From: Promethearchaeota archaeon
GTDB lineage: Archaea > Asgardarchaeota > Lokiarchaeia > Sigyniarchaeales > SOKP01
Assembly: GCA_016840085.1 (NCBI GenBank)
Contig: JAEOTA010000012.1
Span: 62,001 to 126,000 of the forward strand
DNA: 64,000 bases
Reading direction: 5' to 3'
Program-made: the position numbers and the translations under genes
The notes under the pieces: model-generated
Told to the model about the DNA's origin: nothing
Database searches by the model: none
Seen by the model: the letters and a program-made list of their open reading frames with translations, nothing else
Part shown: positions 37,770 through 63,855 of the stretch, in pieces
How the letters are laid out: the number at the start of each line of letters is the position of its first letter
Position numbering within the stretch: the first letter of the stretch is position 1

Positions 37770-39149
37770 TCACACCTTCAATGTAGTGTTATCCCTTGCT
37801 AAACCTAAAAAATAATTCCGTACGCCTTCTTTCTTGGATTTTGACATACCGCATTTTCTCAATGATAAAGGGATTATCTGTTTTATAAACCGTTTGACCG
37901 TGTCGGGAGCGACTCCCAATACTTTTGTTGCTTTTTCTTGAGAATAGGAGTCAATTCCGATATATAAAATAAAAGATAGTACAACCTTCTCTCGACGGGT
38001 AACACAAAGTAGGGCCATTCTTTTACAAACCCCCTTGATCAATTCATGAAGGATATCAGTGTTCTCTTTAATTTCTTTTATATATATGAATCGCTTTAAT
38101 AACTGAGTTATAGGGTCATAGACCATTAATATACACGCCTTCTTGGTTGTTAATCCTTGGTCTGTCTGTTTAATTCTTTTAAGCTTTTCTTTTCTACCAG
38201 CTAAGATAGGATTACCATACTTCTTTTCTCCTTTTATTGATAAATTGATCCCAAAATAGATTCTTAATCCCTTACTTCTGCCTGATTGATTTGTCGTGAC
38301 GCCAAGTCTATGTAAGTAATTTGTTAATTTTGCTTTGGTGATAGCTTTAAATCCTTTTTCCTTAAGATATATGTTTACTGCCTGTAATAATCCTTTTTGA
38401 GTAATCATTTTCTCTTCGCTTAAAATACATAACCTTTCTATGAATTTTCTTATGTTCACATCAGTTTTATCTCTTTCAATGAAGACCTCTAAATATTGAG
38501 AATCTCTCCCCGTCCAAGTAAGGAAATTTTTAAGACGGTATAAATATGTTTGTCGTGTTAACATTTTTAGTTTTTTAAAGCTCTTAGAATCAATCCAAGA
38601 TAAGACTCTTGATTTATTAAAATCTAAATCCCATTTAGAAAATTCTCCATATGATATTAGTGGCCTGTGATAACCAAATTTCCCTTTAACTTTTGAATGT
38701 TCCTCAAAAACATTACGAACATTTTGGAAAAATTTTAAAAAAGACTCTGAATCTTCCACTTCTCTCTTTTTGCCCACGATATATTTAGGGATAGCTATAT
38801 TTTTTCCCAGCCATTTAGCAAAGCTGTAAATCCTGGTTCTATAACTCTTTTGTGTCTTCTCACTTAGATTTTGAAATTCTATTGAGCTAAATCCTTTAAT
38901 CATATCATTTTCTGAAAAATCTATTCTCCAGTTGATACATCTCCCAAATTTAATTAAGGCTGATTTCCAAGTTGATCTTGATCGGTTGGAAGTAGTGATA
39001 TTTTGATCTAAAAAGGTATTTGTTTTCTTAAGATATAAAATCTTTGCCTTTTTGGAGTCTTCCTTATTGGTTTTCTTATTGAGAATTGCTTCTTCTTCCT
39101 TAATGAATTTAATATTTGATCTTTTATGATTTATTTTATTAATTCCCAT
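37770..39149 (-). CDS. Protein with two integrase-type SAM-like repeats and a C-terminal HTH/cyclin-like domain
   Basis: A 459-residue protein of unknown function. Residues ~57-116 and ~159-216 are an internal duplication: WKSALIKFGRCINWRIDFSE aligns with HRPLISYGEFSKWDLDFNKS, and both copies continue to a KxSYRTRIYSFAKWLG/RQTYLYRLKNFLTWTG-type end. This is the pattern of the N-terminal SAM-like core-binding domain of tyrosine recombinases, but no catalytic domain (RHRY) is present. A winged-helix-like stretch follows (~240-307). The C-terminus has a helix-turn-helix, SYSQEKATKVLGVAPDTVKR, in a setting like the second TFB cyclin repeat. I use the second ATG (39149), since GGTGAT ends three bases before it. 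It sits between two TFB-like remnants. Confidence 0.6.
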   Translation of the reverse strand: MGINKINHKRSNIKFIKEEEAILNKKTNKEDSKKAKILYLKKTNTFLDQNITTSNRSRSTWKSALIKFGRCINWRIDFSENDMIKGFSSIEFQNLSEKTQKSYRTRIYSFAKWLGKNIAIPKYIVGKKREVEDSESFLKFFQNVRNVFEEHSKVKGKFGYHRPLISYGEFSKWDLDFNKSRVLSWIDSKSFKKLKMLTRQTYLYRLKNFLTWTGRDSQYLEVFIERDKTDVNIRKFIERLCILSEEKMITQKGLLQAVNIYLKEKGFKAITKAKLTNYLHRLGVTTNQSGRSKGLRIYFGINLSIKGEKKYGNPILAGRKEKLKRIKQTDQGLTTKKACILMVYDPITQLLKRFIYIKEIKENTDILHELIKGVCKRMALLCVTRREKVVLSFILYIGIDSYSQEKATKVLGVAPDTVKRFIKQIIPLSLRKCGMSKSKKEGVRNYFLGLARDNTTLKV

Positions 39150-39466
39150 TTTATCACCGTTCATTTATTTATTTTTAAATATAAATACCCCCAAATTTTT
39201 ATCTCAATTTCGGGAAACTAAAATCCTTGTAAAAATAATAAACTATACCTTCTAATGACATCTAGAACATAGGAGAAATAGAGGTGAGTGAAAGTATAAT
39301 TAGAAAATGGGAAGAATGAGATATACTAAATTGACTCAAAAAATTAAATCTTAAAGAGAGAGAAAATATAGGCAAGATTGTATTAAATAATTAACTTTTT
39401 TTTATGGACCCCAATAATATCTAGTTACTTTAGTTTTATAAAGCGTATCATTCCATTTCAAAATTC
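39150..39466. other. Spacer between the SAM-repeat protein and the radical SAM gene
   Basis: About 317 bases with the promoter side of the SAM-repeat gene and the 3' end of the radical SAM gene. Nothing coding or repetitive was recognised. The ribosome-binding site GGTGAT for the SAM-repeat gene lies at its left edge. Confidence 0.4.
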
Positions 39467-40939: not shown

Positions 40940-41004
40940 TATCCTTAATAATAATTTTTATTATTTTGAGTTAGCAACACATACTTTATTCTAGTTTTAT
41001 CAAA

Positions 41005-41022
41005 ACAATCCTTACAATCCTT
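41005..41022. repeat. Short tandem 9-bp repeat
   Basis: ACAATCCTT occurs twice in tandem in the 279-base spacer between the radical SAM gene and the metallohydrolase gene. The rest of this spacer has no gene; it contains a short G-rich stretch around 41135-41165. Confidence 0.7.
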
Positions 41023-41218
41023 ACTGCAACCATCACACTCCTTCCTCTTAGGTAGCTAAATATAAAGTTTTATAGTATTGCTTTCATCATCATTATAGGT
41101 TATGAATTATTAATCTATGTTTCAATCTTATGTGCTCCGGGCATGGGTGACCAACGGTGGCTAGATAGGTAAAAATTTAAGATTCAAGGATAACAAGACT
41201 ATACAAATTCCGAATTAT

Positions 41219-43592: not shown

Positions 43593-44504
43593 CTATCTTA
43601 TTGATTGTTTAAAAATAGGTTTTAAAACATTAACATAATGGTCTCTTATAGAATATTCAGCGATATTAGTAGCTTCAGAAATAATCCATTGAGCTAAGAC
43701 AGGCTTCTGAAAATATTTTTTAGCCAATAGTTTGTCTGCTAAATAAATTATCCCCCCTGTTAAAATAAAGGGATTTCTACCTCCACGCTGTTTCATAGGT
43801 AACTTTTTTAATATTTCACGACACTGTATAGTCAACTTATTTTGAAATTCTCCTTTTGACCAAAGTACATTTTTCTTTTTTAATCTCTCTTCCAAATCTT
43901 TATGATTTATGACTTGATTAATTAATCTCATGAGATAATCTTCACTTTTATGAGGGAAATTCTCATCTTTAATATGATGTTTATATTCTATTCCATCTCT
44001 TAAGATTAATCTCGGATTAACTCGATGACCATAGTTTTGAAAAGCCTCAGAGATCTCCTTTATTGTAATAGGTGCATTATGATATTCTTTCCTCGCAGCA
44101 TAAAATATACAAAACCCTATTAATGAGATATTATTTACAACCTTAACCTCATTTTTGATTATTTTCCTGTAATAATACGCTGCGTTGTTTCTAATATTTT
44201 TATTGAGATTTAGATATGACGAAATTTTATTTAAAATATTAAAAATTCTGTATTCTGTTTCATGATTTTTAAGCCTTAATAATAGGTCATAATTTTTTTT
44301 TAATCTTCTAAATAATTTTTGTTCATTCGGACGTAAAAGTCTACCGGTTTTATCTTTTAAAAACTTAGTATTTCCATAATCTATATATGAACCTAATCCT
44401 CCAATAAAATCAGTACGCTCCCCTAAAGCTATATATTGTTTGCTTAAATTTCTTTCATTATTCTTATTATTTTCAGTATAAACAAAAGATGATTCTTTAT
44501 AAAA
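43593..44504 (-). pseudogene. TFB-like cyclin-fold protein lacking zinc ribbon and start codon
   Basis: An open frame of 303 codons from a TAA at 44505-44507 down to TAG at 43593. It encodes a recognisable TFB core. FIGGLGSYIDYG and GRLLRPNEQKLFRRLK precede cyclin fold 1 (ILNKISSYLNLNKNIRNNAA, then ISLIGFCIFYAARKEYHNAP). Cyclin fold 2 has GRNPFILTGGIIYLADKLLA and a final NIAEYSIRDHYVNVLKPIF. The zinc ribbon and B-reader are missing, and no ATG, GTG or TTG occurs in frame before codon ~192, so the 5' end appears lost. It could still be expressed from an upstream fused start, but a 5'-truncated pseudogene is more likely. A small remnant of the same gene lies at 37391. Confidence 0.75.
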
Positions 44505-51516: not shown

Positions 51517-53697
51517 TCATTTTCTTGTTGCGCTCTCCCAATCATTCCAAAATCTTTCTAATTTTTGAAGCCCGAATTTACTAATAAAGGAGATTTCATC
51601 AAAAACCTCAACTAACGAGGCTTTTGAATATCTCTCTATCTTTGCCATCATCTCAAAAAATTGTTTATAAATGTTGAGATAGCGCCAAAAAGTTTGCTTG
51701 TCCAATTTTTCATGTTTAGTAAGTTTTTGTATAGCTTTACAATCATAAAGGTTTTCTCCTTTTAATGCGTCCCAATCATCCGTATCAGGATTATATTGAA
51801 AGAGAGTATCAATATCACCAGAGGAGTTGATTTCAGCTACTTGAATGACTTTTCTCTTGCTGGTGTTGGAATCTTTTTTCATCAAAACAATTAAGTCTAA
51901 ATCATTAAAGCATGAAGAATCAATCTTAAAATGGTGTAAAAAGCGATTAATCAGAGATTCGATATTATTACAGTGAATTGTTTGGAATCCTCTTAATCCT
52001 GCTGAAAGACAATGAAACATGGCTTTAGCTTCTTCTTCAGTTAAAATTTCTCCAAGATAAATTATATCAGGAGATCGATGTAATAATTTCTTTATTAGAT
52101 TACTTTTTGAATATTTTATATCTACATCATCGTCTAGTGAATCTACTTTATATTTTAATTGATGTTTGTCTAAATCGTCTTGGTTTGACGATTCGATAGC
52201 ATTTTCTATGTATATTTTTCTAAATTCTTTAGGCGCTATTAAATCCAATGCATTAATTAAAGTCGTTTTCCCAGTATCAGTCTCACCCGTCACAGTAATA
52301 TTATTTCTTTTTAAGATGTTAAAATAGAGAAAAGAGGCAATGAGGGGATTCAAAGTGTTATTCTGAACTAAATCTTGAATAGTAAAAATATTTTTATTAA
52401 GTTTTCTTATATCTAAAGAAAATCCCGATGCATGAATAGGAGCTATATCTACCGCGATTCTGCAAAAGAAAAGGTTATTCTTCATAACAAATTTAATGCT
52501 TGGATTAGAATAGTCTAACCGTTGCCCGCTATAAAAACGGCAAAAAGTTTTTAATCTTTCAATCTCGTTCTCATTAAATCTGATATCTGTACGACACCTA
52601 CCATGTATACGATGATTAATATAGACATATGATATATCAGAATCTAAAAAAATCTCTTCTATGAAGTCATCAATCAAGAAAGGAAATAATTTTGCAAGGT
52701 CTATAGCATCAAAAGTAGCTAATAAACTTATCCTCTCTTTCTCGTCATCAGAGACATGATACTTTCCGCTAATATAATCAATTCCTTCATTTTTATATTT
52801 TTGAATAAGTTCTTCAAAGGTTATTAAACCCTCAATCTTAAATGAATCGATAAGATGATTCTTGACGTCTTTTGCAATTTTTTTAAAGAACTGTTCTTCG
52901 CCTTTAGTCTGAAAAGTGAGATTAACTTCATATAACTTCTCAAATGCATGCGTATCATAAATTCGGATCTTAAATAATTGATGTTCCCCTATTAAATAAT
53001 TATCAATTAATCCAAATCTTTCTTTTGAATGAAGATCCTTTTTTGTCTTCTTTTGTGATTGACTAGAAATATTTTGAGTTGAAAATAACTCTCTATGAAA
53101 TCGTAAATAAGAAGGATATTGATTATGTTTTTTACAGAAGGTTATATATTCATTAATAATTCTTTGTTCTTTTAAGACTCTTAGAAAAGTCGTAAATTTA
53201 GCCTTTAATTCTTTTTGACATGTAAAACAAGCAGCATTATTTACTTCTTTACTCTTTATCAGTTTGTATCTCATTTGAATAAGCTCGAAGAGTCCAATTG
53301 GATCATGAAAATCGATCTTGGCAGGACGTACACCTGAATAAAAATCAGAAAACAGAACACATCCCATATCGTTTTTAATACATCCTTTACTGAAATCGAA
53401 ATCTATGAGCTCAAAAGAATCTTTAATCTGTTTAGTCTTTTTGAAATATTCCAAGAATAACTCAATACTATCTTTCGTTATTGTAAACTTCTCAGTTCCC
53501 AACGATAAAGATTCAAATTTTTTTCCTTTAATCTTATGTAATATCGCTAAGAAACATTGGATACATTTTGTATTTTTTAATATTACCCCTGTATATTTTG
53601 GACAATTCTTACAATCAACTATAACCAATCGTTCTTTTTTACCTTGAAAATTCTCTCTTTCTTGAAATATGACTAAATCTGATGTTTTAAGGGTCAT
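51517..53697 (-). CDS. Secretion ATPase of the GspE/VirB11/ArlI superfamily
   Basis: A 726-residue hexameric-type motor ATPase. The N-terminal part has a zinc-binding segment with Cys29, Cys32, Cys45 and Cys48 (DCKNCPKYTG and KNTKCIQCF). The core starts near residue 330. Walker A is TVTGETDTGKTTLINAL at about 468-484. The region after it shows IIYLGEILTEEEAKAMFHCL (Walker B-like, Asp box varied) and GFQTIHCNNIESLINRF (His box). A ~90-residue helical tail ends the protein. The size and zinc N-terminus match archaeal type IV filament/secretion ATPases. It is the last gene of the secretion locus, coupled to a zinc-ribbon gene 2 bases upstream. Confidence 0.9.
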   Translation of the reverse strand: MTLKTSDLVIFQERENFQGKKERLVIVDCKNCPKYTGVILKNTKCIQCFLAILHKIKGKKFESLSLGTEKFTITKDSIELFLEYFKKTKQIKDSFELIDFDFSKGCIKNDMGCVLFSDFYSGVRPAKIDFHDPIGLFELIQMRYKLIKSKEVNNAACFTCQKELKAKFTTFLRVLKEQRIINEYITFCKKHNQYPSYLRFHRELFSTQNISSQSQKKTKKDLHSKERFGLIDNYLIGEHQLFKIRIYDTHAFEKLYEVNLTFQTKGEEQFFKKIAKDVKNHLIDSFKIEGLITFEELIQKYKNEGIDYISGKYHVSDDEKERISLLATFDAIDLAKLFPFLIDDFIEEIFLDSDISYVYINHRIHGRCRTDIRFNENEIERLKTFCRFYSGQRLDYSNPSIKFVMKNNLFFCRIAVDIAPIHASGFSLDIRKLNKNIFTIQDLVQNNTLNPLIASFLYFNILKRNNITVTGETDTGKTTLINALDLIAPKEFRKIYIENAIESSNQDDLDKHQLKYKVDSLDDDVDIKYSKSNLIKKLLHRSPDIIYLGEILTEEEAKAMFHCLSAGLRGFQTIHCNNIESLINRFLHHFKIDSSCFNDLDLIVLMKKDSNTSKRKVIQVAEINSSGDIDTLFQYNPDTDDWDALKGENLYDCKAIQKLTKHEKLDKQTFWRYLNIYKQFFEMMAKIERYSKASLVEVFDEISFISKFGLQKLERFWNDWESATRK

Positions 53698-53699
53698 TG

Positions 53700-53963
53700 T
53701 TATCTATCTCCATACATATAATCATATTCTCTTTTTACGGTAGGATCTTTTTCTATAGCAGACTCCATTTTAATCCTCTGAAGCATTTTGGGAGCATCAG
53801 CTAGAGATTCTAAGATATAAGTCTGTTTTTCTATTTCTGAAAATTTCATCTTATAACCACATTTGATACATTTAATTTTTTCAATCCTTTTTAGAACATA
53901 GCGCCAAGTTTTACACTTTGGACATTGGAAAAAAAATGCAGGTGTTTTAAACATTATTTTCAC
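53700..53963 (-). CDS. Small zinc-ribbon protein of the secretion locus
   Basis: An 87-residue protein with a zinc ribbon: FQCPKCKTWRYVLK (about 12-25) and IKCIKCGYKMKF (about 31-42), followed by a helical tail. Its stop is two bases before the start of the secretion ATPase gene, so the two are translationally coupled. GGGGTG upstream provides a ribosome-binding site. Function unknown; a partner or regulator of the ATPase is likely from context. Confidence 0.7.
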   Translation of the reverse strand: MKIMFKTPAFFFQCPKCKTWRYVLKRIEKIKCIKCGYKMKFSEIEKQTYILESLADAPKMLQRIKMESAIEKDPTVKREYDYMYGDR

Positions 53964-53972
53964 ACCCCATAA

Positions 53973-55091
53973 CTAAAATAGATCTATTATATTTTGTTTT
54001 ATAAAATATTCATAATTAAAGATTCTAACATTTGGCAACTCCATCAATTTCTTTCTGTTTATTATTTTGGAATATTCTTTATCATTAATAACTAAAATTA
54101 CTATGTTATATTTCGGATAAAGTTGATCAAAGACTCTTGTAAGTAGTTTATAATCAACTGTGTCAAATATTAGAAACATAAACTTATCATTAATTAAAAA
54201 TGATCTATTACTTAATCTACGATAAGAAAGTCCATCTAAGATGAGCAATTTCTCAATTTCAGCATTTATTTTTGTAAAATCTCTTTTTTCTTTACTAAGA
54301 GGGTTTGAATAAAACATTTGCTCTATATCTGTATAGGTAAGATAATTATTGGAAATATCTAACCGCCATAAGATTTTATAACAATCATTAAGCGCTAAAG
54401 CAAACGAATCTACTAAGCCACATTCAAAAAAACTATTAATCTCATATTCAAGGTTATATTCATCCCTGATATTATTTTTTTGATCGACAAAATATCCCGA
54501 AATAACCATTTGAGAATCCTTTATCATACAATTAAAAATTAAAAAACCTTGGCGTTTAAACCGTTTAATCAAATTTGTAAACTCATAAAGAAAATTTACT
54601 TTTTTTTCTAATTCATATAGATCCAACGCATAAATATCCAATATATTTAAAAATCGCTCATTCTCTATGATAAATGAGTTTGTTGATTTTAACCTATGAA
54701 TTTTGGAATTAAGATTTGTAAAACCTATTTCAAGAAAATGAAGTTCTAATTTTTTCCCATCTAGGAATATGGCAGGAATTTGCGATTCCTCAACAAACTT
54801 GGTCTTTAGGACGTTGAGAACGGCTAAAATATTTTTTTTTTCGGCGTCCATAAAACATAGAACGATATATGATTCAATCTTATTGGTTATAGATATTTGA
54901 ACTGAGAAATAATGGAGCTTCTCTTTTTGTACTAAATGTTTCAGTATAGGAAGAGCTGTATGATAATTAAAGGCCTTTATGATTGAAAAGGCAATAATCT
55001 TATTAGATCTGTTAAGACTTGTATAACAAATTAAATTATCTTCAATTTCAAATGTTCCAAGTTTATAACATCCTTTTTTTATGTATGCCAC
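53973..55091 (-). CDS. Uncharacterised 372-residue protein of the secretion locus
   Basis: A soluble protein with GTG start (GTG-GCA-TAC). It is alpha/beta in character, with YSVQISITNKIESYIVLCFM-like strands (actual HYFSVQISITNKIESYIVLC) in the first third, a helical middle (ELEKKVNFLYEFTNLIKRF) and a final Rossmann-like part with MFLIFDTVDYKLLTRVFDQL and YNIVILVINDKEYSKIINRK that could be a nuclease-like or response-regulator-like fold. No catalytic motif is certain. It sits between membrane-protein genes and the zinc-ribbon/ATPase genes on the same strand. Confidence 0.65.
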   Translation of the reverse strand: MAYIKKGCYKLGTFEIEDNLICYTSLNRSNKIIAFSIIKAFNYHTALPILKHLVQKEKLHYFSVQISITNKIESYIVLCFMDAEKKNILAVLNVLKTKFVEESQIPAIFLDGKKLELHFLEIGFTNLNSKIHRLKSTNSFIIENERFLNILDIYALDLYELEKKVNFLYEFTNLIKRFKRQGFLIFNCMIKDSQMVISGYFVDQKNNIRDEYNLEYEINSFFECGLVDSFALALNDCYKILWRLDISNNYLTYTDIEQMFYSNPLSKEKRDFTKINAEIEKLLILDGLSYRRLSNRSFLINDKFMFLIFDTVDYKLLTRVFDQLYPKYNIVILVINDKEYSKIINRKKLMELPNVRIFNYEYFIKQNIIDLF

Positions 55092-55134
55092 AATTTAGAG
55101 TGTCTCATTTAATAATTTTAAACTCCATGGAAAT

Positions 55135-55428
55135 TTACGCATAAAAACACAAGATAAATAACATGATTGCCAAATATATACCTACAAAAATATAAATAAA
55201 TCTAGCAAAACCGAACAAAAGTTGAAAAAACAAGAGGTTTTCTATACCTAAGAAAAGTAATGATTTATATAACGTGTTCAATAAAACTAAGAGAGGAATT
55301 AGAACAATAAGATAAAGTCCGAAAGAAAAAAACATAATTAATTGATCTGTTGCGATTACATTATACGCAAAGAGAAGTATATAAAAACCAAGTATTATTA
55401 ATATTTCAAGTATTAATATTTCGAGCAA
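55135..55428 (-). CDS. Three-helix small membrane protein
   Basis: A 97-residue protein, almost all hydrophobic, with three membrane segments (about 2-22, 27-55 and 66-95) and no motif. Start is TTG 55428, which overlaps the end of the preceding gene (stop at 55406) by 23 bases, so coupling is likely. The position in a secretion locus suggests a small channel or platform subunit, comparable in size to CedA1/VirB3-like proteins, but there is no sequence evidence for that. Confidence 0.6.
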   Translation of the reverse strand: MLEILILEILIILGFYILLFAYNVIATDQLIMFFSFGLYLIVLIPLLVLLNTLYKSLLFLGIENLLFFQLLFGFARFIYIFVGIYLAIMLFILCFYA

Positions 55429-56167
55429 TTTTATCCAACTTATTCATAATTTTTGAGGTAATTTGAAAAATAGTTTGAGCAGATCTATTTTGTTCGGCAA
55501 ATCGATATTGTTGTGCTAGATAAGAAGAATACTGTATCGCTTCCTCATAGAAGGCAAATTCAAGTTCCCTTTCTTCTATTTCAAACAATAAATCGTTAAC
55601 ATCGAAATATTTGATCCCTAAAAACTCCGCTAATCGTAAGAAAAGATAATTGATAAGGGTATTACAGCCCTCTATTACGGCAGAAGAATATCCAATTCGA
55701 TAATGATTCTCTAATTCTTGGAAACGGTGTGTTAATTTATCCAATTCAAGATTCGGCTTTGTCGGAGTATATTCTAGACTTCTACTATTCGGTGTGCGCT
55801 TTTGATATCGTAAAGAATTAGACTGATAGCTAGAAGTAGATGGTAATTGCCTATTATTCTGGATGGGTGACATTTCTCTTCTCTGATGTCTACCCCCTAT
55901 ATTAAGATTTTCGACATTTTCGATATTTTTAATATTAATATTATAATTTTCAGGACGATATTGTTTTCTTTTTTGGCGTTTCGCCTTACGTTTGCGATAT
56001 GATTTTATTGCTTTTTTTATGCTTTTTTTGATATCTTTCTTTTTTCTTTTTACAATTGGTTTAAAAATGTGCTTATACCAAGGTGCAAACTTATATTCTT
56101 TCCAATCATTAAACTTTTCTTTTTTTTCTCGTAATTTCTCAGACATGCTTTTTTTTTCATATTCCAT
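55406..56167 (-). CDS. Basic protein with helical C-terminal domain
   Basis: A 253-residue soluble protein. The first ~70 residues are extremely Lys/Arg-rich (IKSYRKRKAKRQKRKQYRP), probably binding nucleic acid or acidic surfaces. A Ser/Arg/Asn-rich linker follows (~75-130), then a helical domain (~135-253) with HYRIGYSSAVIEGCNTLINY and LFLRLAEFLGIKYFDV, whose layout recalls HEPN-like bundles without a visible RxxxxH motif. The start is ATG 56167; AAGGTGA precedes it by five bases, and a GTG nine bases earlier lies in this Shine-Dalgarno. Overlaps the next gene downstream by 23 bases. Confidence 0.65.
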   Translation of the reverse strand: MEYEKKSMSEKLREKKEKFNDWKEYKFAPWYKHIFKPIVKRKKKDIKKSIKKAIKSYRKRKAKRQKRKQYRPENYNINIKNIENVENLNIGGRHQRREMSPIQNNRQLPSTSSYQSNSLRYQKRTPNSRSLEYTPTKPNLELDKLTHRFQELENHYRIGYSSAVIEGCNTLINYLFLRLAEFLGIKYFDVNDLLFEIEERELEFAFYEEAIQYSSYLAQQYRFAEQNRSAQTIFQITSKIMNKLDKIARNINT

Positions 56168-56177
56168 ACTATTCACC

Positions 56178-56552
56178 TTATAATATTACATCGAATTGGT
56201 CATTAAAGCGTTTAAAAAACAATTCTAAACCAAGTTTGGTATTTTCCAAATCTTTATCTCTTTTTCTGACTAAAACCGTCTCAATTAACGTCAAAATTAG
56301 GTCAAAATCCCTAAGAGTTAAAACAGAATTCGTGTAATTCATATCATTTCCCTCAGTTAAATTATATTGTTCATATAATTTATCTATTATTCTTAAAATA
56401 TCCTTGTTTAATCTCGTTTGCACTTTATCGTCAAATGTATACCAGAATTCGTGATAGAGCTTCTCCACAGAAATAATAAGATTTTCAATATTGGAAATTT
56501 TGAATATTGAAAATGAGGCTTTTTTTTTTGTATCTTTATCATATAATTTCAT
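56178..56552 (-). CDS. Uncharacterised 124-residue helical protein
   Basis: A soluble, mostly helical protein (ISVEKLYHEFWYTFDDKVQT, later SVLTLRDFDLILTLIETVLV). No known family. It lies between two similarly small genes on the same strand, with short spacers of 7 and 10 bases, clearly in one operon of the secretion locus. GAGAGGG stands upstream of its ATG. Confidence 0.6.
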   Translation of the reverse strand: MKLYDKDTKKKASFSIFKISNIENLIISVEKLYHEFWYTFDDKVQTRLNKDILRIIDKLYEQYNLTEGNDMNYTNSVLTLRDFDLILTLIETVLVRKRDKDLENTKLGLELFFKRFNDQFDVIL

Positions 56553-56559
56553 TTATTTA

Positions 56560-56967
56560 CTATTCCCTCTCATTAGTTTTGTGTGATTCAGGAAAACAAT
56601 CAGATATATATTTTAGGGCGGTGTGAGACTCATATTCTTTATTAAGGATATCTTTCATTATCTTCATACATTTTGACGTAAAACTCTTCTTAGAGATCGA
56701 ACGCTTTAGAGACTTTATTTTCTTTTTTATTTCTTTTAGCTCAGACACATACATAATACCTGTCTTAAAGGGATTAATCTTTGAATCAAATGGAATCTCG
56801 TATCTAAGAACATCTGATATTTTCTCTATTAAACTTGGTATCTTTTCACCTTGTTTTTCTCTAATCTTTTGGTTATTGCGATAAATCTCCATTAGAGTTT
56901 TCAAAAGATTCTGAAAAGGTTTTATTTCGAATATAACCCATTTAATTTCACATTTTCTCATCATCAT
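56560..56967 (-). CDS. Uncharacterised 135-residue basic helical protein
   Basis: A Lys-rich helical protein with MRKCEIKWVIFEIKPFQNLL at the start and LKEIKKKIKSLKRSISKKSF in the second half. The end carries KEYESHTALKYISDCFP, which resembles the end of the upstream 231-residue protein (LLNKKYGRHKNIEDIYY-type): both read N-K-E/K-Y-x-x-H/R near the C-terminus, so the two may share a short C-terminal module. Its start overlaps the stop of that gene by four bases (ATGA type). Function unknown. Confidence 0.6.
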   Translation of the reverse strand: MMMRKCEIKWVIFEIKPFQNLLKTLMEIYRNNQKIREKQGEKIPSLIEKISDVLRYEIPFDSKINPFKTGIMYVSELKEIKKKIKSLKRSISKKSFTSKCMKIMKDILNKEYESHTALKYISDCFPESHKTNERE

Positions 56968-57659
56968 CGCTCTTGTTGTCTATAATAAATATCTTCAATA
57001 TTTTTATGTCGCCCGTATTTTTTGTTGAGCATCTCTCTTACCAGTTCATCATCGCTCTTCATAAGTAATTCTTTATTTGTTATTTTCTTCTTTAATTGCT
57101 TAATCTCTTTTTTAATATCTTTTAAATCAGAGGATTTTGCAGACCTACCTCTTTTACCTCGCCTTCCTCTCTTTCCTCTTTTACCCCTTTTAGGTTTGTC
57201 CCTTTTTCTTTTATCTTTTTTTCGTTCTATATCTTTTTTATCATCTGTATCTTCCTTATCATCTCTTTTTTTTCCATCATCTTTATCTTCCCTTCGTTTT
57301 CTATCAAGCTCTTCGCCTTTAATATCTCTTTCTGAAGGAGTATCTTCTATTTGCTTATGCTCCTTTTCTCCCAAATATTCATTATAGTTCTTATCCTCTT
57401 GGATATTTTCTAAATCTGTATCAGATAATGATTCTCTTTCTTCCAAAGGCTCATATGTATTATCATTTTCGAAGAATTTCATAGATTCTTCCTCTGAAAG
57501 TGGTTCATACTTATCGGACTCTTTATCAGAATCATTATCAAATAGACTCTCGTCTGTTTCATCGAAATCCTTATCATCCTCATTATCGAAAAGATCTTCT
57601 GAATCTTCTTCAAAAAAGTCATCCGTATTATCATCATAATCTTCTTCAAAATCAGCCAT
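56964..57659 (-). CDS. Low-complexity charged protein, acidic N-terminal and basic C-terminal parts
   Basis: A 231-residue protein with strong charge segregation. Residues 1-110 are very Asp/Glu-rich (DFEEDYDDNTDDFFEEDSED), residues ~115-150 mixed Asp/Lys, and ~150-180 are Lys/Arg/Gly-rich (KRGKRGKRGRRGKRGRS). A helical tail (~180-231) with IKQLKKKITNKELLMKSDDE and a final KKYGRHKNIEDIYY resembles the end of the next gene's product. It is probably disordered and may bind nucleic acid or bridge proteins. It is the first gene after the large ATPase, which ends the 72-base gap upstream. Confidence 0.65.
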   Translation of the reverse strand: MADFEEDYDDNTDDFFEEDSEDLFDNEDDKDFDETDESLFDNDSDKESDKYEPLSEEESMKFFENDNTYEPLEERESLSDTDLENIQEDKNYNEYLGEKEHKQIEDTPSERDIKGEELDRKRREDKDDGKKRDDKEDTDDKKDIERKKDKRKRDKPKRGKRGKRGRRGKRGRSAKSSDLKDIKKEIKQLKKKITNKELLMKSDDELVREMLNKKYGRHKNIEDIYYRQQER

Positions 57660-57730
57660 TTTAATATACCCTTATAATTCTTTATCTACTTTTGTTGTTT
57701 TGAAATAATCTTAAATACACCTTGAAATTT

Positions 57731-60355
57731 TCAATCTGTTTTAGCAAAAAAATTATCATAAGATAATTCCTTTCTTTTTTTACGTTTGTAAACAAAATCT
57801 TCAGTTTTGAAAAGATACGAATATGAACCGTCTTTTGCCATACAAATCCGTTTATCTAAACGAGAAATTAATTCTTGTTCTTTTAAATCATTAGTGAAAT
57901 TCTGAGTGCTTGCAATAGACTGCTGAAATAAGAAGAACAAACAAGGAATATTGATTACAGATTCGTATAACCCCACGCTTGTTTGATCAGCTAATATATG
58001 CCCCACTCCTTTCGAGCGAAACTCACGAATTAACTGTGAAAAAATCTTCCTGAAAGAATCCATTGCAATATAATCATCATCTTCAGGATTAACATTTTTA
58101 GGCTCTTCTGTTAATTGATGTGCTTCATCTAATACTATAATTTGTTTTAGAGTGTCCTGTTCTTTATCTGGAATAAGGGCCCTAAACATTTGTAATATTA
58201 ATGTTGCTAACAATCGCTTTTCAGTAGGTTTGCATCCTGCTAAATTAATCATTACTTTTCTTCCGTTATATACAACGTCCTCAAACCATTTAGGTATTTT
58301 ATCTTCTGTTCTTAATGCATAGTTTATCAAAGGAGTTGAGAAAAGTTGAGTATATCTATGTTTTATTGCTTGCACTAATCTCATCTGAAGCCGTGTATCA
58401 TAAGGATTTTTATCTAAATACCGTAAAAGCTCACTAAAAAGATGTTTGATATGCTTTGGTACTTTGAAATAAGTGTTATAATATAATAACAGTGTATTGT
58501 ATATTGCATCAACAACAACATTCTTTAAACCAAGTGAATAAACAAGGCATTCTGATATTTCAAATAGACAACGGAGAAAATTATCGTTAAAAACAGCATA
58601 CGGAATGTGAAGTCTCTCGTCTCCCCAATCTAAGCAATAATCTGAAGGATATAATTCAGATTGTTTTCCTTTAGCAAGATTAATTATCAATATACCTACA
58701 TTTAGATTATATTTAATGAAATGATTCAATATAACACCTATTAAATATGTTTTTCCAGTATCAGGTTTACCGATCATTAGAACGGAACGTCTTAATGACT
58801 CAGTTGAGATTGTTGCTTTTTTCTCAGAAACGATTCCGTCCATGATATGGTTTCCAATGATAATTTCAGAAGGATCTCCTTTTGGTATTTTCTTAAGGTC
58901 AAAACTCTGAAGTTCATAAATAAACTTTTTAGGTATAGGTAATTCTTTAGCAAGATCAAAATCGAGTAAATAAGAAGTGATATACTGCCCAAAGTAAAAG
59001 TTTAATGTATAGATATCGATAAATACACCTTTTCTTACTCGCTTTAGTTTTGCGGGTCGTTTATCATTTCTTCCTGCAATTGCCAAACTTTCTAATATGC
59101 CTTCGATCATATTTTTTCGATTTTTTTCCAGGGGAACATTTTTGAAACTAACAAAAATTTTTACTTTTTGCAACTCATCTTGCCACATTCGTGAAAAATT
59201 CATACGTTCTTCCTTATCGCGATATTCAAGAAAGTTGGCTTTTTCTCTTATTCGGATAATCTTTTTCTTTCGTCCTTTTTTCCATAATATATATAGATTT
59301 ATATCTTCAGAAGTAGTTCTGAAGGCATTAATAAAACTCTGTATAATTTTAATCTTTTCTATATATGGTGGTCTCGGAAGCTTAATTTCATAAAAATAAT
59401 CATGATTTACTGAGAATAATTCGTTCCGAGTCATGGGAATTATATTTATTTCTGCATCCAATCCACGATATTTGACCTGTAATTCTGCTTTAAGGGTCTG
59501 TCCTCTTTTAATTGCTAATTTTTCTGAATGTGAATTAAAAAAAAATGAAAACTTGAAATCGTTATGGCATTTAACTTCAATCCCATACACACTGTTATTT
59601 CCCAATAAATCCTTTATCCAACTCTCATAATAATCATATTGATATTTTTTATTGTCTGATTCATGTTCTAAGGCTACTTGAGTAATTGTGATTTTGCTTT
59701 GCCAAAATAAGATCTTTTTAAGATGTGAGTTAGAACTTGCTCCTTTCAAGAAACACAATTGAATACTGTGAAAATACGAATATAATAATCTGTAAACTGG
59801 TTCATAAAAAAACAGAGTTAAAAAAGATTGAAGAATAATTGAATAAATAACAACTTCAATAAAGCCTTGAATAGTGGCAAAATAAAATAAAAACGACAGC
59901 GAAATAACACCACTTAGAAATTTGATGATAAATTCTATTTCTGGTGTAAATACTATTAGAAAAATAATAGTGAGTATTAAAATAGTAATAGAACTGTAAA
60001 AGAAATCCCCATTTATAGTTAAAACTATGATATGACAAAAAAAGGCGATAATTAAAGGATATACCCTTGCTAAATCGACTCTTTTATTACTATTATTTAA
60101 GAAATAAAGAGCTATACAAAATGTAAATATTAGAGCCCTTTCACATTCAAAGATCGTTATAAATGTTGGATCATCATAATTCATAATATGAATGCGTATT
60201 ATTGAAAACAGAATTACGAAAAGAAAGAGTATAAACAAAAGAAAAATGCGACTCCTCCCTTTTTCTACTAGAAATGAATGGATAAAACTAACGATTAGAA
60301 TAATTATAAGAAGGATAGCAATAGAATCAAATAAAGTAAATATCATATCATACAC
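57731..60355 (-). CDS. Polytopic HerA/VirD4-like coupling ATPase
   Basis: An 874-residue protein. The first ~200 residues hold six or seven membrane helices (for example IAILLIIILIVSFIHSFLVE). A beta-rich middle part (~205-480) follows. The ATPase has Walker A MIGKPDTGKTYLIGVIL at about 525-541 and Walker B QIIVLDEAHQLTEEP at about 738-752, with HILADQTSVGLYESVINIPC and a C-terminal arginine-rich end. This is the RecA-like motor of the FtsK/HerA/VirB4/VirD4 class; membrane anchoring suggests a coupling protein or Ced-like DNA pump. Starts are GTG 60355 or ATG 60346; no ribosome-binding site is evident. Confidence 0.85.
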   Translation of the reverse strand: MYDMIFTLFDSIAILLIIILIVSFIHSFLVEKGRSRIFLLFILFLFVILFSIIRIHIMNYDDPTFITIFECERALIFTFCIALYFLNNSNKRVDLARVYPLIIAFFCHIIVLTINGDFFYSSITILILTIIFLIVFTPEIEFIIKFLSGVISLSFLFYFATIQGFIEVVIYSIILQSFLTLFFYEPVYRLLYSYFHSIQLCFLKGASSNSHLKKILFWQSKITITQVALEHESDNKKYQYDYYESWIKDLLGNNSVYGIEVKCHNDFKFSFFFNSHSEKLAIKRGQTLKAELQVKYRGLDAEINIIPMTRNELFSVNHDYFYEIKLPRPPYIEKIKIIQSFINAFRTTSEDINLYILWKKGRKKKIIRIREKANFLEYRDKEERMNFSRMWQDELQKVKIFVSFKNVPLEKNRKNMIEGILESLAIAGRNDKRPAKLKRVRKGVFIDIYTLNFYFGQYITSYLLDFDLAKELPIPKKFIYELQSFDLKKIPKGDPSEIIIGNHIMDGIVSEKKATISTESLRRSVLMIGKPDTGKTYLIGVILNHFIKYNLNVGILIINLAKGKQSELYPSDYCLDWGDERLHIPYAVFNDNFLRCLFEISECLVYSLGLKNVVVDAIYNTLLLYYNTYFKVPKHIKHLFSELLRYLDKNPYDTRLQMRLVQAIKHRYTQLFSTPLINYALRTEDKIPKWFEDVVYNGRKVMINLAGCKPTEKRLLATLILQMFRALIPDKEQDTLKQIIVLDEAHQLTEEPKNVNPEDDDYIAMDSFRKIFSQLIREFRSKGVGHILADQTSVGLYESVINIPCLFFLFQQSIASTQNFTNDLKEQELISRLDKRICMAKDGSYSYLFKTEDFVYKRKKRKELSYDNFFAKTD

Positions 60356-60666
60356 TTATCAGGTCCTTATATACTTATTGTCGACATGTAATTATAAAAA
60401 CCAATTGAATTTAATAAAAACCTATAACCGAATATTAATCTCTTTTGATATGATTTCTATTGTTTGCTAATACATTTCATACAATTCACTGTAAGATTTT
60501 TTTTAGCTTTTAATAATTTTCCTTAACGCGAAGTGAATCAAGGAAAATGGGAGTGAAGAATTTGCGGATATACTACTCATCTAATAATCATATGTTTAGC
60601 ATACTGAGAGATAAATAATAATCAATTTAAATGGGAGTTTTTATAATTTTTTTTGGATATTAAGAT
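60356..60666. other. Divergent intergenic region with a 9-bp inverted repeat
   Basis: About 310 bases between the large ATPase gene and the plus-strand 142-residue gene. A perfect inverted repeat ATTTTCCTT (60516-60524)/AAGGAAAAT (60540-60548) with a 15-base spacer lies in the middle and could be an operator for both. No gene is supported. Confidence 0.5.
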
Positions 60667-61095
60667 ATGTCAAACATGTTTATAGGCACTGAATTAGCTT
60701 TTGTTGATATTCTCATTTTGCTTCTTATAACCGTTTTGGATTTTCTCTTTTATTATTATAAAAAGAGATCTAAAGAAGTGAAAATATTGAAATATTCAAT
60801 TCCTACAATTTTGATTGGATTGGTGATACTTTTAGCGGTTAAAGACACGGTTCAGGATTACTTTTTCCTTATATCAATTGGCATGCTTTCTATATTTTAT
60901 ATTTATGTTCTGCAAGCAAATTATAAGCCTTTTAAGAGAAAATCAAAGGGAATAAAATATAATATAACCTCTGAATCAGAACATGATTTTGATTTTAAAA
61001 CTGAGATTGAGCAAGAGGATATTGAAGTTTCTAAAAGCGACTCAGATGAGTTTGATCAATTAATTGAACGAATATACGATAGAGATACCAAATAG
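60667..61095 (+). CDS. Membrane protein with acidic cytoplasmic tail
   Basis: A 142-residue protein. Three hydrophobic segments (about 10-29, 42-58 and 66-80) are followed by a basic turn KPFKRKSKG and an acidic tail SESEHDFDFKTEIEQEDIEV. It is the only plus-strand gene inside the secretion locus, convergent with the 201-residue membrane-protein gene and divergent from the large ATPase gene. No family recognised. Confidence 0.65.
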   Translation: MSNMFIGTELAFVDILILLLITVLDFLFYYYKKRSKEVKILKYSIPTILIGLVILLAVKDTVQDYFFLISIGMLSIFYIYVLQANYKPFKRKSKGIKYNITSESEHDFDFKTEIEQEDIEVSKSDSDEFDQLIERIYDRDTK

Positions 61096-61116
61096 GAAAA
61101 ATAAACCTTTTTCTGC

Positions 61117-61722
61117 TTAAAGCATTTTAAATTTTAGACCATTCATAATTGTGAACGGTAGCGTAAATCCGCATATAATTGATCCTATCAGTCCTATGAT
61201 TATAAAATTGAAAGGCTTCCATTTTGTATGTAAAATCCTTTCATTATAAATAAGCAGAAAGACACCATATGCAAGAAGAAAAAAGCATAATAATGAAATA
61301 AATCCTAAAAAATAAAGAAAGAACTTATCAATTAATAAAACCTCTACCTCTCCCTCTTTAATTTGTGCGTAAAAAAGATCCAAATCCGAACTGAATATAT
61401 ACTTATATATAAATGGAGCAGGAAGAGATGTCGTGAGTGAATCTAGAAGCATAATTAAGATATTAGTTAGGAATAACACCCCAATAACCACACATCCGAT
61501 CATTCCCCCCCTCCCATACTTTTTCGAAGAAGATAAAGCATATGAATGGATCTTTTCATTATTTTCTTTCAGTTTTGAACCTTTATATAACGAATAAAAT
61601 AAAAAGAGAAACCATGCAAAAAAGATGTAATTTCCCAAGAAAAAGACAATTGAAAATAATTGATTAAAGAAATTAAAAACATCATCAAACCATTCGGACA
61701 TATTAGGAAGAACATCTGTCAT
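61117..61722 (-). CDS. Four-helix membrane protein of the secretion locus
   Basis: A 201-residue protein with four or five hydrophobic segments (about 20-45, 75-95, 130-160 and 170-195), separated by short loops. A charged cytoplasmic loop KGSKLKENNEKIHSYAL lies after the first. There is no recognised family; size and topology would suit a VirB6/CedA-like channel subunit, which is inference from context only. GTGATTTT upstream of the ATG may be the ribosome-binding site. Confidence 0.65.
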   Translation of the reverse strand: MTDVLPNMSEWFDDVFNFFNQLFSIVFFLGNYIFFAWFLFLFYSLYKGSKLKENNEKIHSYALSSSKKYGRGGMIGCVVIGVLFLTNILIMLLDSLTTSLPAPFIYKYIFSSDLDLFYAQIKEGEVEVLLIDKFFLYFLGFISLLCFFLLAYGVFLLIYNERILHTKWKPFNFIIIGLIGSIICGFTLPFTIMNGLKFKML

Positions 61723-61744
61723 TTTTTAAAATCACATCATCAAA

Positions 61745-61909
61745 TCAAAAAAACGGCAGTAAACACGCCCCTTCCCCTAAGAAAAATTCACTCAAATTGA
61801 ACATTTCACCAGTAAGAATATCAATTAAGTCTGTAACAATTTTAACTATCAAAAAGAAAACGAAAATCGCGAATGCTATTAACAATCCTTTTTCGATCAA
61901 ACTACCCAA
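61745..61909 (-). CDS. Small membrane protein (54 residues) with a pilin-like N-terminus
   Basis: TTG-started frame: (M)GSLIEKGLLIAFAIFVFF, then LIVKIVTDLIDILTGEMFNL and SEFFLGEGACLLPFF. One strong hydrophobic helix follows the charged EKG. The 'EKG-LLIAFAIF' junction resembles a class III prepilin cleavage site, though the rest is too short for a normal archaeal pilin. It opens right after an in-frame stop and has no strong ribosome-binding site. The position between two membrane-protein genes of the same strand supports it. Confidence 0.5.
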   Translation of the reverse strand: MGSLIEKGLLIAFAIFVFFLIVKIVTDLIDILTGEMFNLSEFFLGEGACLLPFF

Positions 61910-61975
61910 TTAAATCAACTTTTTTCCTATATTCATCATAATTGTGAACATAAAATAATTTAAACCAAACCAATT

Positions 61976-63502
61976 TCAAATCAATTCAATCCCAAGAACA
62001 CTAAAGAAGGAAAGAAAGAATGCTAACGCAAACACAATATCACTGAGAATAAGAATTATATAATATGACTTGTATTTTGTAATTTTGAGAAAATAAAAAC
62101 ATGTAATCGAATTGCATGCAAAAAATGTAAGAAACATAACGATTGCATTAATAATATTTGTCATAGAGCGATAGTCAGGAATAGTCATATTAGCAAAATT
62201 TCTTAGATTAAATGTGAATATTGCAAAAAAAGGCAACATTCCGCATATAGCCCCCGTTATCACGGGTAAGAGCAAGATGAAAGCAAGTACTTTGAACCTT
62301 TGAGATCGTATTTCCCCTTCAAACTTATCTTCTAACTTTCGATGTTTATCAATCAAACTTAAAATCTCAAAGATCTTTTCGGAAGATAAATACGCACTTT
62401 CTTCAACCATGATCTTTATCGTATCCAGGATTAAAATATATCTTAAATTCTTCAGGATAAATTTTAAGGAATCTATCATTTCATTGAACGAGCAAGTAAG
62501 TTTTCCCAACTGTATAGCATGATTACCAACAGTATGTTCTAATAGCTGAAATTGAGACTTTTTTTCAGAATAATAATTGATGAACGCTCTTTCAGGAGAG
62601 ATATTGTTGTTTAGCCGAATTGCAAATCCTTCTAAAAATTTTAAAAACTGTTCGAATGTTCTTTTTTCCATTTTTGTTCCTTCTAATATCCCTATAAAGA
62701 AAATATTAATCTTTACAAGTCTACGGCAGAGATATCTAAGTAAGAATAAAAAAATTGGTACAATTACAATTACAAGAAATAAGGGAATTTGCATCATTAA
62801 TACAAAAAAGATTACGCCAATAGGGAAAAATATACCCACAAAAAACACCACCGATAGTTTTCCCTCTAGCCCTTTCAGATAAGTTTTAAATTGCTTTTCT
62901 AATTCATAATCTCTTACACTTTCTTGAATACTAGATGTTTTAAAATGACTAGTAATTAATTTCTGCAAATATAAATTAAAATCGGATGAAGGGGTTAATA
63001 CTTTTTCCAATTCTTTTTCAGGACTTTTCCCCCGCTGCACCTTATCTAAAATTTCTTTGAATAATCCTGAGAACACCAAATCTAACCCACTCATCAACTT
63101 AATAAAGCTTAAACATAAATCCGATCTTGGAGTAAGGACTTTTTGCAAGAGTGAGAAATTAATTTTTATGAAATATATTGAAGCGTTAATCGACACCTCA
63201 TCTTTATTGATTCTTTTGTAAAGATATAGATTGAAATTATACGCCACTATTACTGCAATACAGAGAGAACAGACACTATTAATCAAAATATCATTTCCTA
63301 ACAATAGAAAAGAGATTAATATTGAACCGATAAGCGAGATTATGAAAATAATGGTTGTTGCTTTATCGATTGCCGATTTACTAACTCCATATTCTCGATA
63401 CAGTTTTCTATAAACATCATTGATATCTTTAAAACTAATTTTGGGAATCTGGTATCTCTCGAATCTATTACAAAATCTTACAAAATCTTGAATATCAGTC
63501 AA
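61976..63502 (-). CDS. ArlJ/TadC-type membrane platform protein (T2SS-F family)
   Basis: A 508-residue protein with two T2SSF-like halves. Membrane helices are at about 48-67, 70-90, 215-236, 241-260, then at about 400-425, 440-460 and 470-505; between lie cytoplasmic helical bundles (LQKVLTPRSDLCLSFIKLMS and VGNHAIQLGKLTCSFNEMID). The alternation of helical bundle and two-helix membrane hairpins is that of archaeal ArlJ/TadC/PilC platforms that pair with ArlI/GspE motors. TTG 63502 is the start; AGGAATTT is a weak ribosome-binding site. It should work with the ATPase at 51517-53697. Confidence 0.85.
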   Translation of the reverse strand: MTDIQDFVRFCNRFERYQIPKISFKDINDVYRKLYREYGVSKSAIDKATTIIFIISLIGSILISFLLLGNDILINSVCSLCIAVIVAYNFNLYLYKRINKDEVSINASIYFIKINFSLLQKVLTPRSDLCLSFIKLMSGLDLVFSGLFKEILDKVQRGKSPEKELEKVLTPSSDFNLYLQKLITSHFKTSSIQESVRDYELEKQFKTYLKGLEGKLSVVFFVGIFFPIGVIFFVLMMQIPLFLVIVIVPIFLFLLRYLCRRLVKINIFFIGILEGTKMEKRTFEQFLKFLEGFAIRLNNNISPERAFINYYSEKKSQFQLLEHTVGNHAIQLGKLTCSFNEMIDSLKFILKNLRYILILDTIKIMVEESAYLSSEKIFEILSLIDKHRKLEDKFEGEIRSQRFKVLAFILLLPVITGAICGMLPFFAIFTFNLRNFANMTIPDYRSMTNIINAIVMFLTFFACNSITCFYFLKITKYKSYYIILILSDIVFALAFFLSFFSVLGIELI

Positions 63503-63564
63503 ATAAATTCCTATTAATATTTTTATATACTTTCATAAAAATATGTTAAAAATTCCCCCATTTT

Positions 63565-63855
63565 TTATGATGTTTTAGCTTTGAAATCCTTTTTTAAACG
63601 CTCATATTGTTCAATTCCCGCTAGGGCACCTTGTAATAAATGATAGATTTCATTCATACGCATAAACTCAGTAAAATAGGGGCAGAAATTCTGACCTTGC
63701 AACCCCTTCTTCTCAAATTTAGTGGAAAACACCAGTTTATATAATCTTCTTTTATCATGTTTGTAGGGGTAAAGATTAAGCGAATTTCGAGGCAAATCTA
63801 ACATTTTTTCGATAAGGGAAATCTTATTTAAAAGCATTTGTTTAGTATATTTCAT
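63565..63855 (-). CDS. Uncharacterised 96-residue basic protein
   Basis: A soluble, basic protein: MKYTKQMLLNKISLIEKMLD, then YPYKHDKRRLYKLVFSTKFE, then a C-terminal helix RMNEIYHLLQGALAGIEQYE. No family is recognised. It precedes the platform gene on the same strand by 62 bases and is probably the first gene of the secretion operon inside the window, unless the operon continues beyond the right edge. Confidence 0.6.
   Translation of the reverse strand: MKYTKQMLLNKISLIEKMLDLPRNSLNLYPYKHDKRRLYKLVFSTKFEKKGLQGQNFCPYFTEFMRMNEIYHLLQGALAGIEQYERLKKDFKAKTS

Follow-up and report, generated by a model that had tools for sequence, protein, structure and literature searches.

A type IV filament and a predicted VirB4-like ATPase encoded together on a putative integrative element of Lokiarchaeota

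Background

The locus described here raises the question of whether genes for a type IV filament and a gene for a large membrane ATPase, which lie side by side in a Lokiarchaeota genome, encode parts of one machine and, if so, what this machine does. It occupies the right end of a stretch of 64,000 nucleotides, called the window below (bases 62001-126000 of contig JAEOTA010000012.1, or C69, of assembly GCA_016840085.1), from a genome bin of 4.68 Mb in 89 contigs with a completeness of 98.8% and a contamination of 7.6%. A sequence-only reading of the window had proposed an undescribed secretion or DNA-transfer system joining a filament motor to a HerA/VirD4-like coupling ATPase. We found that the linked gene set lies in a genomic island, recurs on three other contigs, and belongs to an element sharing DNA of high identity with an element of another species. 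In our assessment it is reasonably probable that the locus is the transfer module of an integrative element comparable to the integrative and conjugative elements (ICEs), whose type IV filament would make cell contact while a predicted VirB4-like ATPase drives DNA across the membrane. DNA exchange among Asgard archaea is largely an open subject and bears on the uptake of foreign genes by the lineage nearest to eukaryotes.

The linked gene set and its recurrence

The genes listed by the sequence-only reading are all present as open frames, mostly on the minus strand. An independent copy of the set was found on contig JANBVM010000002.1 (61,481 bp), part of the metagenome-assembled genome AMOR_Bin_1762, which is labelled Patescibacteria. 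In the following list AMOR denotes identity to the relative on that contig, and the chromosomal loci are those discussed further below.

51517..53697 (-), motor, a GspE/ArlI-class ATPase with a cysteine-rich N-terminal part (Pfam T2SSE, 5.1e-17; PDB 2oap, 9.2e-23; FlaI, 4.5e-21; chromosomal motor, 46%; AMOR, 62%)
53700..53963 (-), zinc-ribbon-like protein of 87 amino acids (aa) (sub-threshold zinc-ribbon matches; no AMOR relative)
53973..55091 (-), 372-aa protein, a predicted VirB4 N-terminal domain lacking the ATPase (structure prediction; AMOR, 47%)
55135..55428 (-), 97-aa membrane protein of the filament set (chromosomal copy, 46%; AMOR, 52%; 32 of 37 chromosomal loci)
55406..56176 (-), 256-aa soluble protein, basic and confined to the neighbourhood of the ATPase (AMOR, 49%; 26% in G092:C7; 0 of 37 chromosomal loci)
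56178..56552 (-), 124-aa soluble protein (AMOR, 36%)
56560..56967 (-), 135-aa soluble protein (open frame; no AMOR relative found)
56964..57659 (-), 231-aa protein, highly charged and ending in a basic tail, a candidate DNA-binding partner of the ATPase (AMOR, 39%)
57731..60355 (-), 874-aa membrane ATPase, predicted VirB4-like (structure prediction; AMOR, 61%)
60667..61095 (+), 142-aa membrane protein (AMOR, 48%)
61117..61722 (-), 201-aa membrane protein, candidate part of a channel (AMOR, 59%; relatives in G092 and G171, and by profile in G001 and G181, hhalign 95.8%)
61745..61909 (-), 54-aa pilin-like protein, leaderless, with a TTG start after an in-frame stop (73% to a 55-aa AMOR protein; matches a Flp-like pilin family built in the analysis)
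61976..63502 (-), ArlJ/TadC-like platform (chromosomal platform, 39%; AMOR, 70%)
63565..63855 (-), 96-aa soluble protein of unsure membership (open frame; no AMOR match)

The AMOR contig additionally encodes Orc1/Cdc6 (53%), a TFIIB-like protein (65%) and a SAM-domain protein (56%). Its bacterial label is doubtful because of the TFIIB and Orc1 genes, and it was probably mis-binned. Its ends show no overlap of at least 16 bases, so that circularity is not demonstrated by the sequence. Across the 11 genes common to the two contigs the rate of nonsynonymous change (dN) is 0.19-0.52, as against a proportion of synonymous differences (pS) of 0.59-0.81, which is near or at saturation; these genes have been kept as proteins. 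Eleven relatives on an independent contig, together with this pattern, argue that the genes co-occur more than by chance.

Relatives of the ATPase (E of at most 1e-40) occur in 26 of 65 family genomes. Its long form, defined as an open frame of at least 820 aa and counted without contig-end fragments (e.g. G083:C163 and G064:C127), is present at nine loci in eight of these genomes, always with at least three N-terminal hydrophobic segments. Motor and platform accompany it at three of the nine, namely the window, G001:C16 and G181:C7, the last from another genus and with genes for Orc1/Cdc6, a prepilin peptidase and a regulator nearby. At G092:C7 and G171:C78 a relative of the 201-aa protein, with four hydrophobic segments, is present but the ATPase has no motor as neighbour; the G092 contig also carries the chromosomal filament locus, at a distance of about 26 kb. 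The remaining four have neither motor and platform nor a 201-aa relative within the fetched stretches, which cover at least 5.8 kb on each side. When named genomes were scanned with the motor alignment, 46 loci emerged, reduced to 41 by dropping five weak bacterial rows: 37 core loci, three with the ATPase and one distant Helarchaeal locus. Two of the three with the ATPase were already among the linked long-form loci and the third is new. In this collection relatives of the window locus are nearly all from Lokiarchaeota. The filament and ATPase halves thus co-occur at three further loci, which disposes of the worry that they might never do so outside the window. In the trees of both motor and platform the window pairs with AMOR, and G001:C16 with G181:C7, each at 99-100% support, and the platform tree needs one change for a single origin of the four element filaments (77% of bootstrap trees).

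Some ATPase relatives with or without membrane segments (L099, L100, L106, L107) adjoin very large proteins of 1,070-1,466 aa, without a Pfam match in the three scanned, and are a separate system, perhaps of defence. The last gene of C69, cut by the contig end (L115:11430-12846), is 29% identical to a protein of 1,337 aa encoded close to a membrane-free relative of the ATPase on G181:C7, so that the island may extend further, with a second ATPase module.

A predicted VirB4-like membrane ATPase and a predicted VirB4-domain protein

The 874-aa ATPase bears seven N-terminal hydrophobic segments, in agreement with the earlier description of it as polytopic. In the database version the protein has 817 aa; beginning 57 residues further on, it would retain five segments, which makes both its true start and two of the seven segments uncertain. 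The match to Pfam DUF87/HerA remains below cut-off (20.8 against 23.2 bits). A whole-model Foldseek search gave a match to 7o42_A (6.2e-12), obtained with a weak model having a predicted local distance difference test score (pLDDT) of 67.4, from which the fold is predicted to be VirB4-like rather than that of the VirD4-like coupling ATPase first envisaged. The VirB4 sequence model TIGR00929 does not match it; no NCBIfam model, including those of the Ced ATPases, matches the window ATPase up to an E of 1, and the CedD model matches only a membrane-free relative, at 23.7 bits against 600. Some type IV secretion systems (T4SSs) have VirB4 without VirD4.

The structural model of the 372-aa protein matches the N-terminal domain of TrwK/VirB4 of R388 (PDB 7o42, 7o43 and 7o41), the only control being unrelated rows of the same match list, and we accordingly describe it as a predicted VirB4 N-terminal domain. 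It has no Walker A motif and its model no ATPase fold, for which reason it is not filed as a VirB4 ATPase, and it matches no Pfam or NCBIfam model.

Among the accompanying proteins the highly charged 231-aa one looks by eye similar to charged proteins that follow the ATPase in L097 and L093. The sole basis for reading the 201-aa protein as VirB2 or VirB6 is a sub-threshold match of the AMOR copy (15.9 bits against 40). The small membrane proteins of the locus, of which the sequence-only reading had counted at least four, lie at 55135-55428, 60667-61095 and 61117-61722, together with the 54-aa pilin-like protein (61745-61909) that this reading had left unnamed.

The filament genes are a diverged copy of a resident system

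The assignment of the motor to the GspE/ArlI class is borne out by Pfam T2SSE, by the NCBIfam archaellum model FlaI (E 5.1e-31) and by cysteine pairs kept in its chromosomal paralogue, although the FlaI score of 108 bits is far under the cut-off of 550. No further archaellum model (ArlH, archaellins) was found among the 10 locus proteins scanned, and the Tad/Flp pilus model TadA (TIGR03819) gives 72.7 bits where 373 are needed. The platform matches Pfam T2SSF only at E 0.09; its identification holds, however, through its 39% identity to a platform adjoining a motor elsewhere in the genome. Of the zinc ribbon the frame is real, while its Pfam and NCBIfam matches all fall below cut-off and it has no AMOR relative.

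This second motor of the same kind lies on contig C81 (L006), in a filament locus with counterparts of the window motor (46%), platform (39%), 372-aa protein (373 aa, 31%) and 97-aa membrane protein (99 aa, 46%). Also encoded there are a pilin-like protein of 140 aa and a small protein showing, by eye, the GxGD pattern of prepilin peptidases; a homologue of the latter in G181 matches Pfam Peptidase_A24 (1.5e-11). The locus adjoins genes for ribosomal proteins L3, L4 and L23 and an Orc1/Cdc6 gene. We considered whether C81 might have strayed in from another species; the only L3 gene of the genome is on C81, which is hence taken as the host's own. Across the 37 core loci, contig ends being scored as misses, L3 is found in 30, the platform in 33, the 372-aa family in 30, the 97-aa family in 32, the peptidase in 28, Orc1 in 28 and the ATPase in none. 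These counts indicate that motor, platform, 372-aa and 97-aa proteins form a resident filament system, so that the window holds a diverged second copy of it with something added. The chromosomal filament differs from that of the element in its prepilin peptidase (28 of 37), its longer pilin-like proteins and the invariable absence of a VirB4-like ATPase (0 of 37). Among 148 phylum genomes homologues of the motor occur in 130 and of the platform in 75, many of them distant; the 372-aa family was found in 27, all among the 31 genomes of this family. The space separating the peptidase from the filament genes (L006:5025-5951) is occupied in 31 and 32 of the 37 core loci by two uncharacterised soluble families, about 130 and 163 aa long; one of them has the C-terminal sequence ELNPEEWDPW, and neither was seen in the elements.

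The 54-aa pilin-like gene starts with TTG and its AMOR copy with ATG; both proteins begin Met-Gly-Ser-Leu-Ile-Glu straight after an in-frame stop, and because the start follows the stop directly neither has a leader. A truncated pilin was ruled out, the AMOR copy being equally short after a stop. Removal of the start Met makes glutamate residue 5, where it is expected in mature type IV pilins; in appearance these pilins are Flp-like. No prepilin peptidase was detected among the 135 open frames of the island or on the AMOR contig. A pilin-like protein without a leader would need none, which fits the absence of the gene from this element. In the elements of G001 and G181 a peptidase relative is encoded, along with pilin-like proteins whose leaders are, by eye, rich in lysine; with two elements on either side, this correlation of leader and peptidase is only a hint.

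The island and its integration

A host gene for a helix-turn-helix (HTH) protein (35935..36828, +) stands in full length at the left edge of the island and is present in 19 of 19 genus genomes. Its surroundings were fetched in nine of the 18 other genus genomes, and the same block follows it in all nine, consisting in L141 of what we take to be a nucleoside-phosphorylase-like and a radical-SAM-like gene. On C69 nucleotide similarity to the relatives ends at 36837; from there to the contig end, over the remaining 98 kb, matches are short, seen only in translation (20-51% identity) and confined to three of the nine. The single phosphorylase-like gene of this genome is on contig C4, where 5.86 kb of other DNA is followed by a headless piece of the HTH gene, which covers residues 122-297 and is 78% identical to its C69 counterpart, and then by the phosphorylase-like gene. 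To judge by gene order, this is the pattern of an insertion that restored the gene at one end. The break in synteny, the uninterrupted block in nine of nine relatives and the displaced flank on C4 point to integration at a definable host site, with the far side lacking sequence closure. The two HTH gene ends are now 75% identical and no exact attachment repeat is definable. Two further features lie just inside this edge:

37770..39164 (-), 464-aa protein with a phage-integrase SAM-like DNA-binding domain (Pfam PF13495, 2.6e-8; 56% to an AMOR protein)
43593..43931 (-), 112-aa TFIIB-like fragment left from a broken gene (other elements have related TFIIB-like genes; below the Pfam threshold)

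The broken gene (43593-44441) retains about 830 bases of DNA similarity to the intact 345-aa AMOR gene, with only the 112-aa frame left. Also in this part (39467-42688) are a radical-SAM-like gene (by eye) and one for a metallo-beta-lactamase-fold protein (Pfam, 3.4e-8), which are probably cargo.

The 18 kb beyond the right edge of the window (L005) contain genes for a regulator, an AbrB/MazE-like protein, Orc1/Cdc6, which lies 1.5 kb past the edge, and TFIIB-like proteins. The sequence-only reading had advised looking there for pilins, a prepilin peptidase and a relaxase, and had seen a possible refutation in a standard archaellum or pilus operon continuing outside. Motor and platform indeed have a standard-locus counterpart on C81; no such operon runs past the window, the 54-aa gene being the only pilin or peptidase relative among the 135 island frames, and in the selection of genes scanned no relaxase was recognised. 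DNA similarity to AMOR extends in pieces over window coordinates 37739-101380, a span close to the AMOR contig size, and the element proper is thus probably some 61-64 kb.

The island and the G001:C16 element share 6,485 bp at 92.6% nucleotide identity, against 73-77% for the host L3, L4 and GHMP-kinase-like genes. This block (window coordinates 91399-97134) encodes a 544-aa SF1-type helicase (Pfam AAA_12), a 178-aa protein with a weak phosphoribosyltransferase match and two unknown proteins. Such high-identity DNA common to the elements of two species suggests exchange between species and may reflect cell-to-cell transfer of the element, and with both halves co-occurring on mobile DNA the earlier suggestion of DNA mobilisation is a sound lead. 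A provirus was considered and set aside: 10 proteins scanned gave no PHROG of known function, and a scan of viral contigs with the ATPase gave no relative.

The island and AMOR also carry small-GTPase-like genes (54-76%) beside a Roadblock-like gene (87% over 219 aa), named from their sequences (window coordinates 97455-101314; AMOR L208:4222-7556), with relatives in G181:C7. They would be genes of eukaryote-signature type riding on a mobile element.

A proposed transfer module and its rivals

Based on these observations we propose that the element-borne filament brings or holds cells together, while the VirB4-like ATPase would drive element DNA across the membrane through a channel that may include the 201-aa protein. 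The 372-aa protein could serve as an adaptor between filament base and ATPase, or as a structural stand-in for the outer VirB4 copies described in R388 (PMC12857230). The basic proteins may bind, hold or guide the DNA, and Orc1/Cdc6 would start replication of the element. A more far-reaching version, which we offer tentatively, sees in Lokiarchaeota a system in which a type IV filament is joined with type IV secretion: the chromosomal filament would already have an ATPase-less VirB4-domain subunit, and the elements would dock a membrane VirB4 pump on a copy of it, turning the filament base into a port for DNA transfer. If the proposal is true, it names a concrete transfer machine of Lokiarchaeota, with element DNA shared between species, and the VirB4-domain protein becomes a physical link from type IV filaments to type IV secretion, open to testing protein by protein. 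It would also assign a likely role to the 372-aa family of the chromosomal filament locus.

Several results weigh against this proposal. The ATPase model is of low confidence (pLDDT 67.4; predicted template modelling score 0.44), its two-domain match to TrwK has a root mean square deviation of 14.8-16, and the 372-aa protein, tried as a sequence relative of the ATPase, gave an hhalign probability of 0.2%. No VirD4 candidate was found, every island or AMOR protein of 100 aa or more with a Walker A motif being otherwise accounted for, with the ends of the element undefined. Neither a relaxase, in the selection of genes scanned, nor the catalytic part of an integrase or tyrosine recombinase, including in the 464-aa SAM-like protein, was recognised. 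The DNA between the end of C69 and the start of C4 is unclosed, the contamination of the bin is a caveat for the island as a whole, and the motor tree requires two changes for the four element copies.

It may also be that the locus holds two neighbours, an adhesion filament and a separate HerA-type ATPase for defence or for the element's own replication or partition. Six of the nine long-form ATPase loci are without motor or platform in the fetched stretches, which counts against the transfer module and for mere adjacency, as do weak matches of the ATPase to the PADLOC model mad8 (4.9e-10) and to HerA models, and the large proteins beside its membrane-free relatives. We nevertheless think this rather unlikely, since the linked set recurs with conserved parts in four loci from two genera and the AMOR contig, and since a VirB4-domain protein, the 372-aa one, is itself part of the filament set. 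Moreover, HerA defence ATPases are not known to have N-terminal hydrophobic segments or a VirB4-like N-terminal domain, of which this ATPase has the former and is predicted to have the latter.

Still less probable is a domesticated host system for DNA import or exchange that came to lie in the island by chance. The chromosomal filament of the host already includes the 372-aa protein, and the Ced and Ups systems of Sulfolobales work in this way with proteins holding parts of the VirB4 N-terminal domain (PMC11868833); yet the patchy occurrence of the long form (eight of 65 family genomes), the high-identity DNA shared with another species' element and the Orc1/Cdc6 and TFIIB-like genes on the element point to mobility. 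Improbable, too, is a protein-secretion system or surface appendage without a role in DNA transfer, in which the ATPase would aid assembly. VirB4 does also serve pilus assembly in T4SSs (PMC12857230), and no relaxase was recognised here; recognised relaxases, however, are described as missing also from archaeal conjugative plasmids (PMC12857230) and thaumarchaeal ICEs (PMC6563490), and the set travels with replication genes. The transfer module remains our preferred explanation. Taken as a whole, the sequence-only reading is supported in the co-occurrence of the two halves and in DNA mobilisation as a lead; no support was found for a VirD4-like coupling ATPase, for a prepilin peptidase or, in the genes scanned, a relaxase beyond the right edge, or for the lack of any described system with this set.

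Comparison with known systems

The closest described counterparts are the thaumarchaeal ICEs (PMC6563490, Krupovic et al. 2019; two are described in PMC5797428), which have VirB4, VirD4, VirB6, VirB3, TadC, FlaI, prepilin peptidase, pilins and TFIIB, in some cases Orc1/Cdc6, and no detected relaxase. They share with the Lokiarchaeota element a FlaI-type motor, a TadC-type platform, pilins, VirB4, TFIIB, the occasional Orc1/Cdc6 and the absence of a recognised relaxase, and their median size of 64 kb compares with 61.5 kb for the AMOR contig. Compared by description only, they usually have VirD4 and homologues of VirB6 and VirB3, none of which is recognised in our element. The element in turn differs in the N-terminal membrane segments of its ATPase and in the VirB4-domain protein of its filament set. 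PAPI-1 of Pseudomonas aeruginosa is likewise a mobile island with VirB4 and its own type IV pilus, which is essential for transfer (PMC12857230); it is bacterial, carries VirD4, and is likened by gene content, not homology. It is these ICEs and PAPI-1, pairing type IV filament genes with VirB4 and VirD4, that contradict the earlier claim of no described system with this set. The known archaeal conjugative plasmids also have VirB4 and VirD4 (PMC12857230), and TFIIB homologues are recorded in archaeal pilus loci (PMC4858521).

In Sulfolobales, Ups and the T4SS-derived Ced (as is Ted; PMC9905601) similarly combine a type IV filament for contact with one or more VirB4-type ATPases for DNA, and spread the VirB4 N-terminal domain over two proteins, CedB and CedD each sharing parts of it (PMC11868833). 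These systems are chromosomal and the Ced pilins are CedA1/VirB2-like, whereas the element has both halves in one island locus (PMC11868833, PMC9905601). TrwK/VirB4 of R388 resembles the predicted folds of the 372-aa protein, in its N-terminal domain, and of the ATPase; sequence identity is 7-12%, the element ATPase adds N-terminal membrane segments and the 372-aa protein lacks the ATPase domain. A description of such an element in Asgard archaea was not found in the open-licence literature, covered by titles and the starts of abstracts. The combination itself is not new in kind; what appears new is its occurrence in Lokiarchaeota, on an ICE-like element in which no VirD4 is recognised and which encodes a VirB4-like ATPase embedded in the membrane as well as a predicted VirB4-domain protein that is also a regular member of the chromosomal filament locus.

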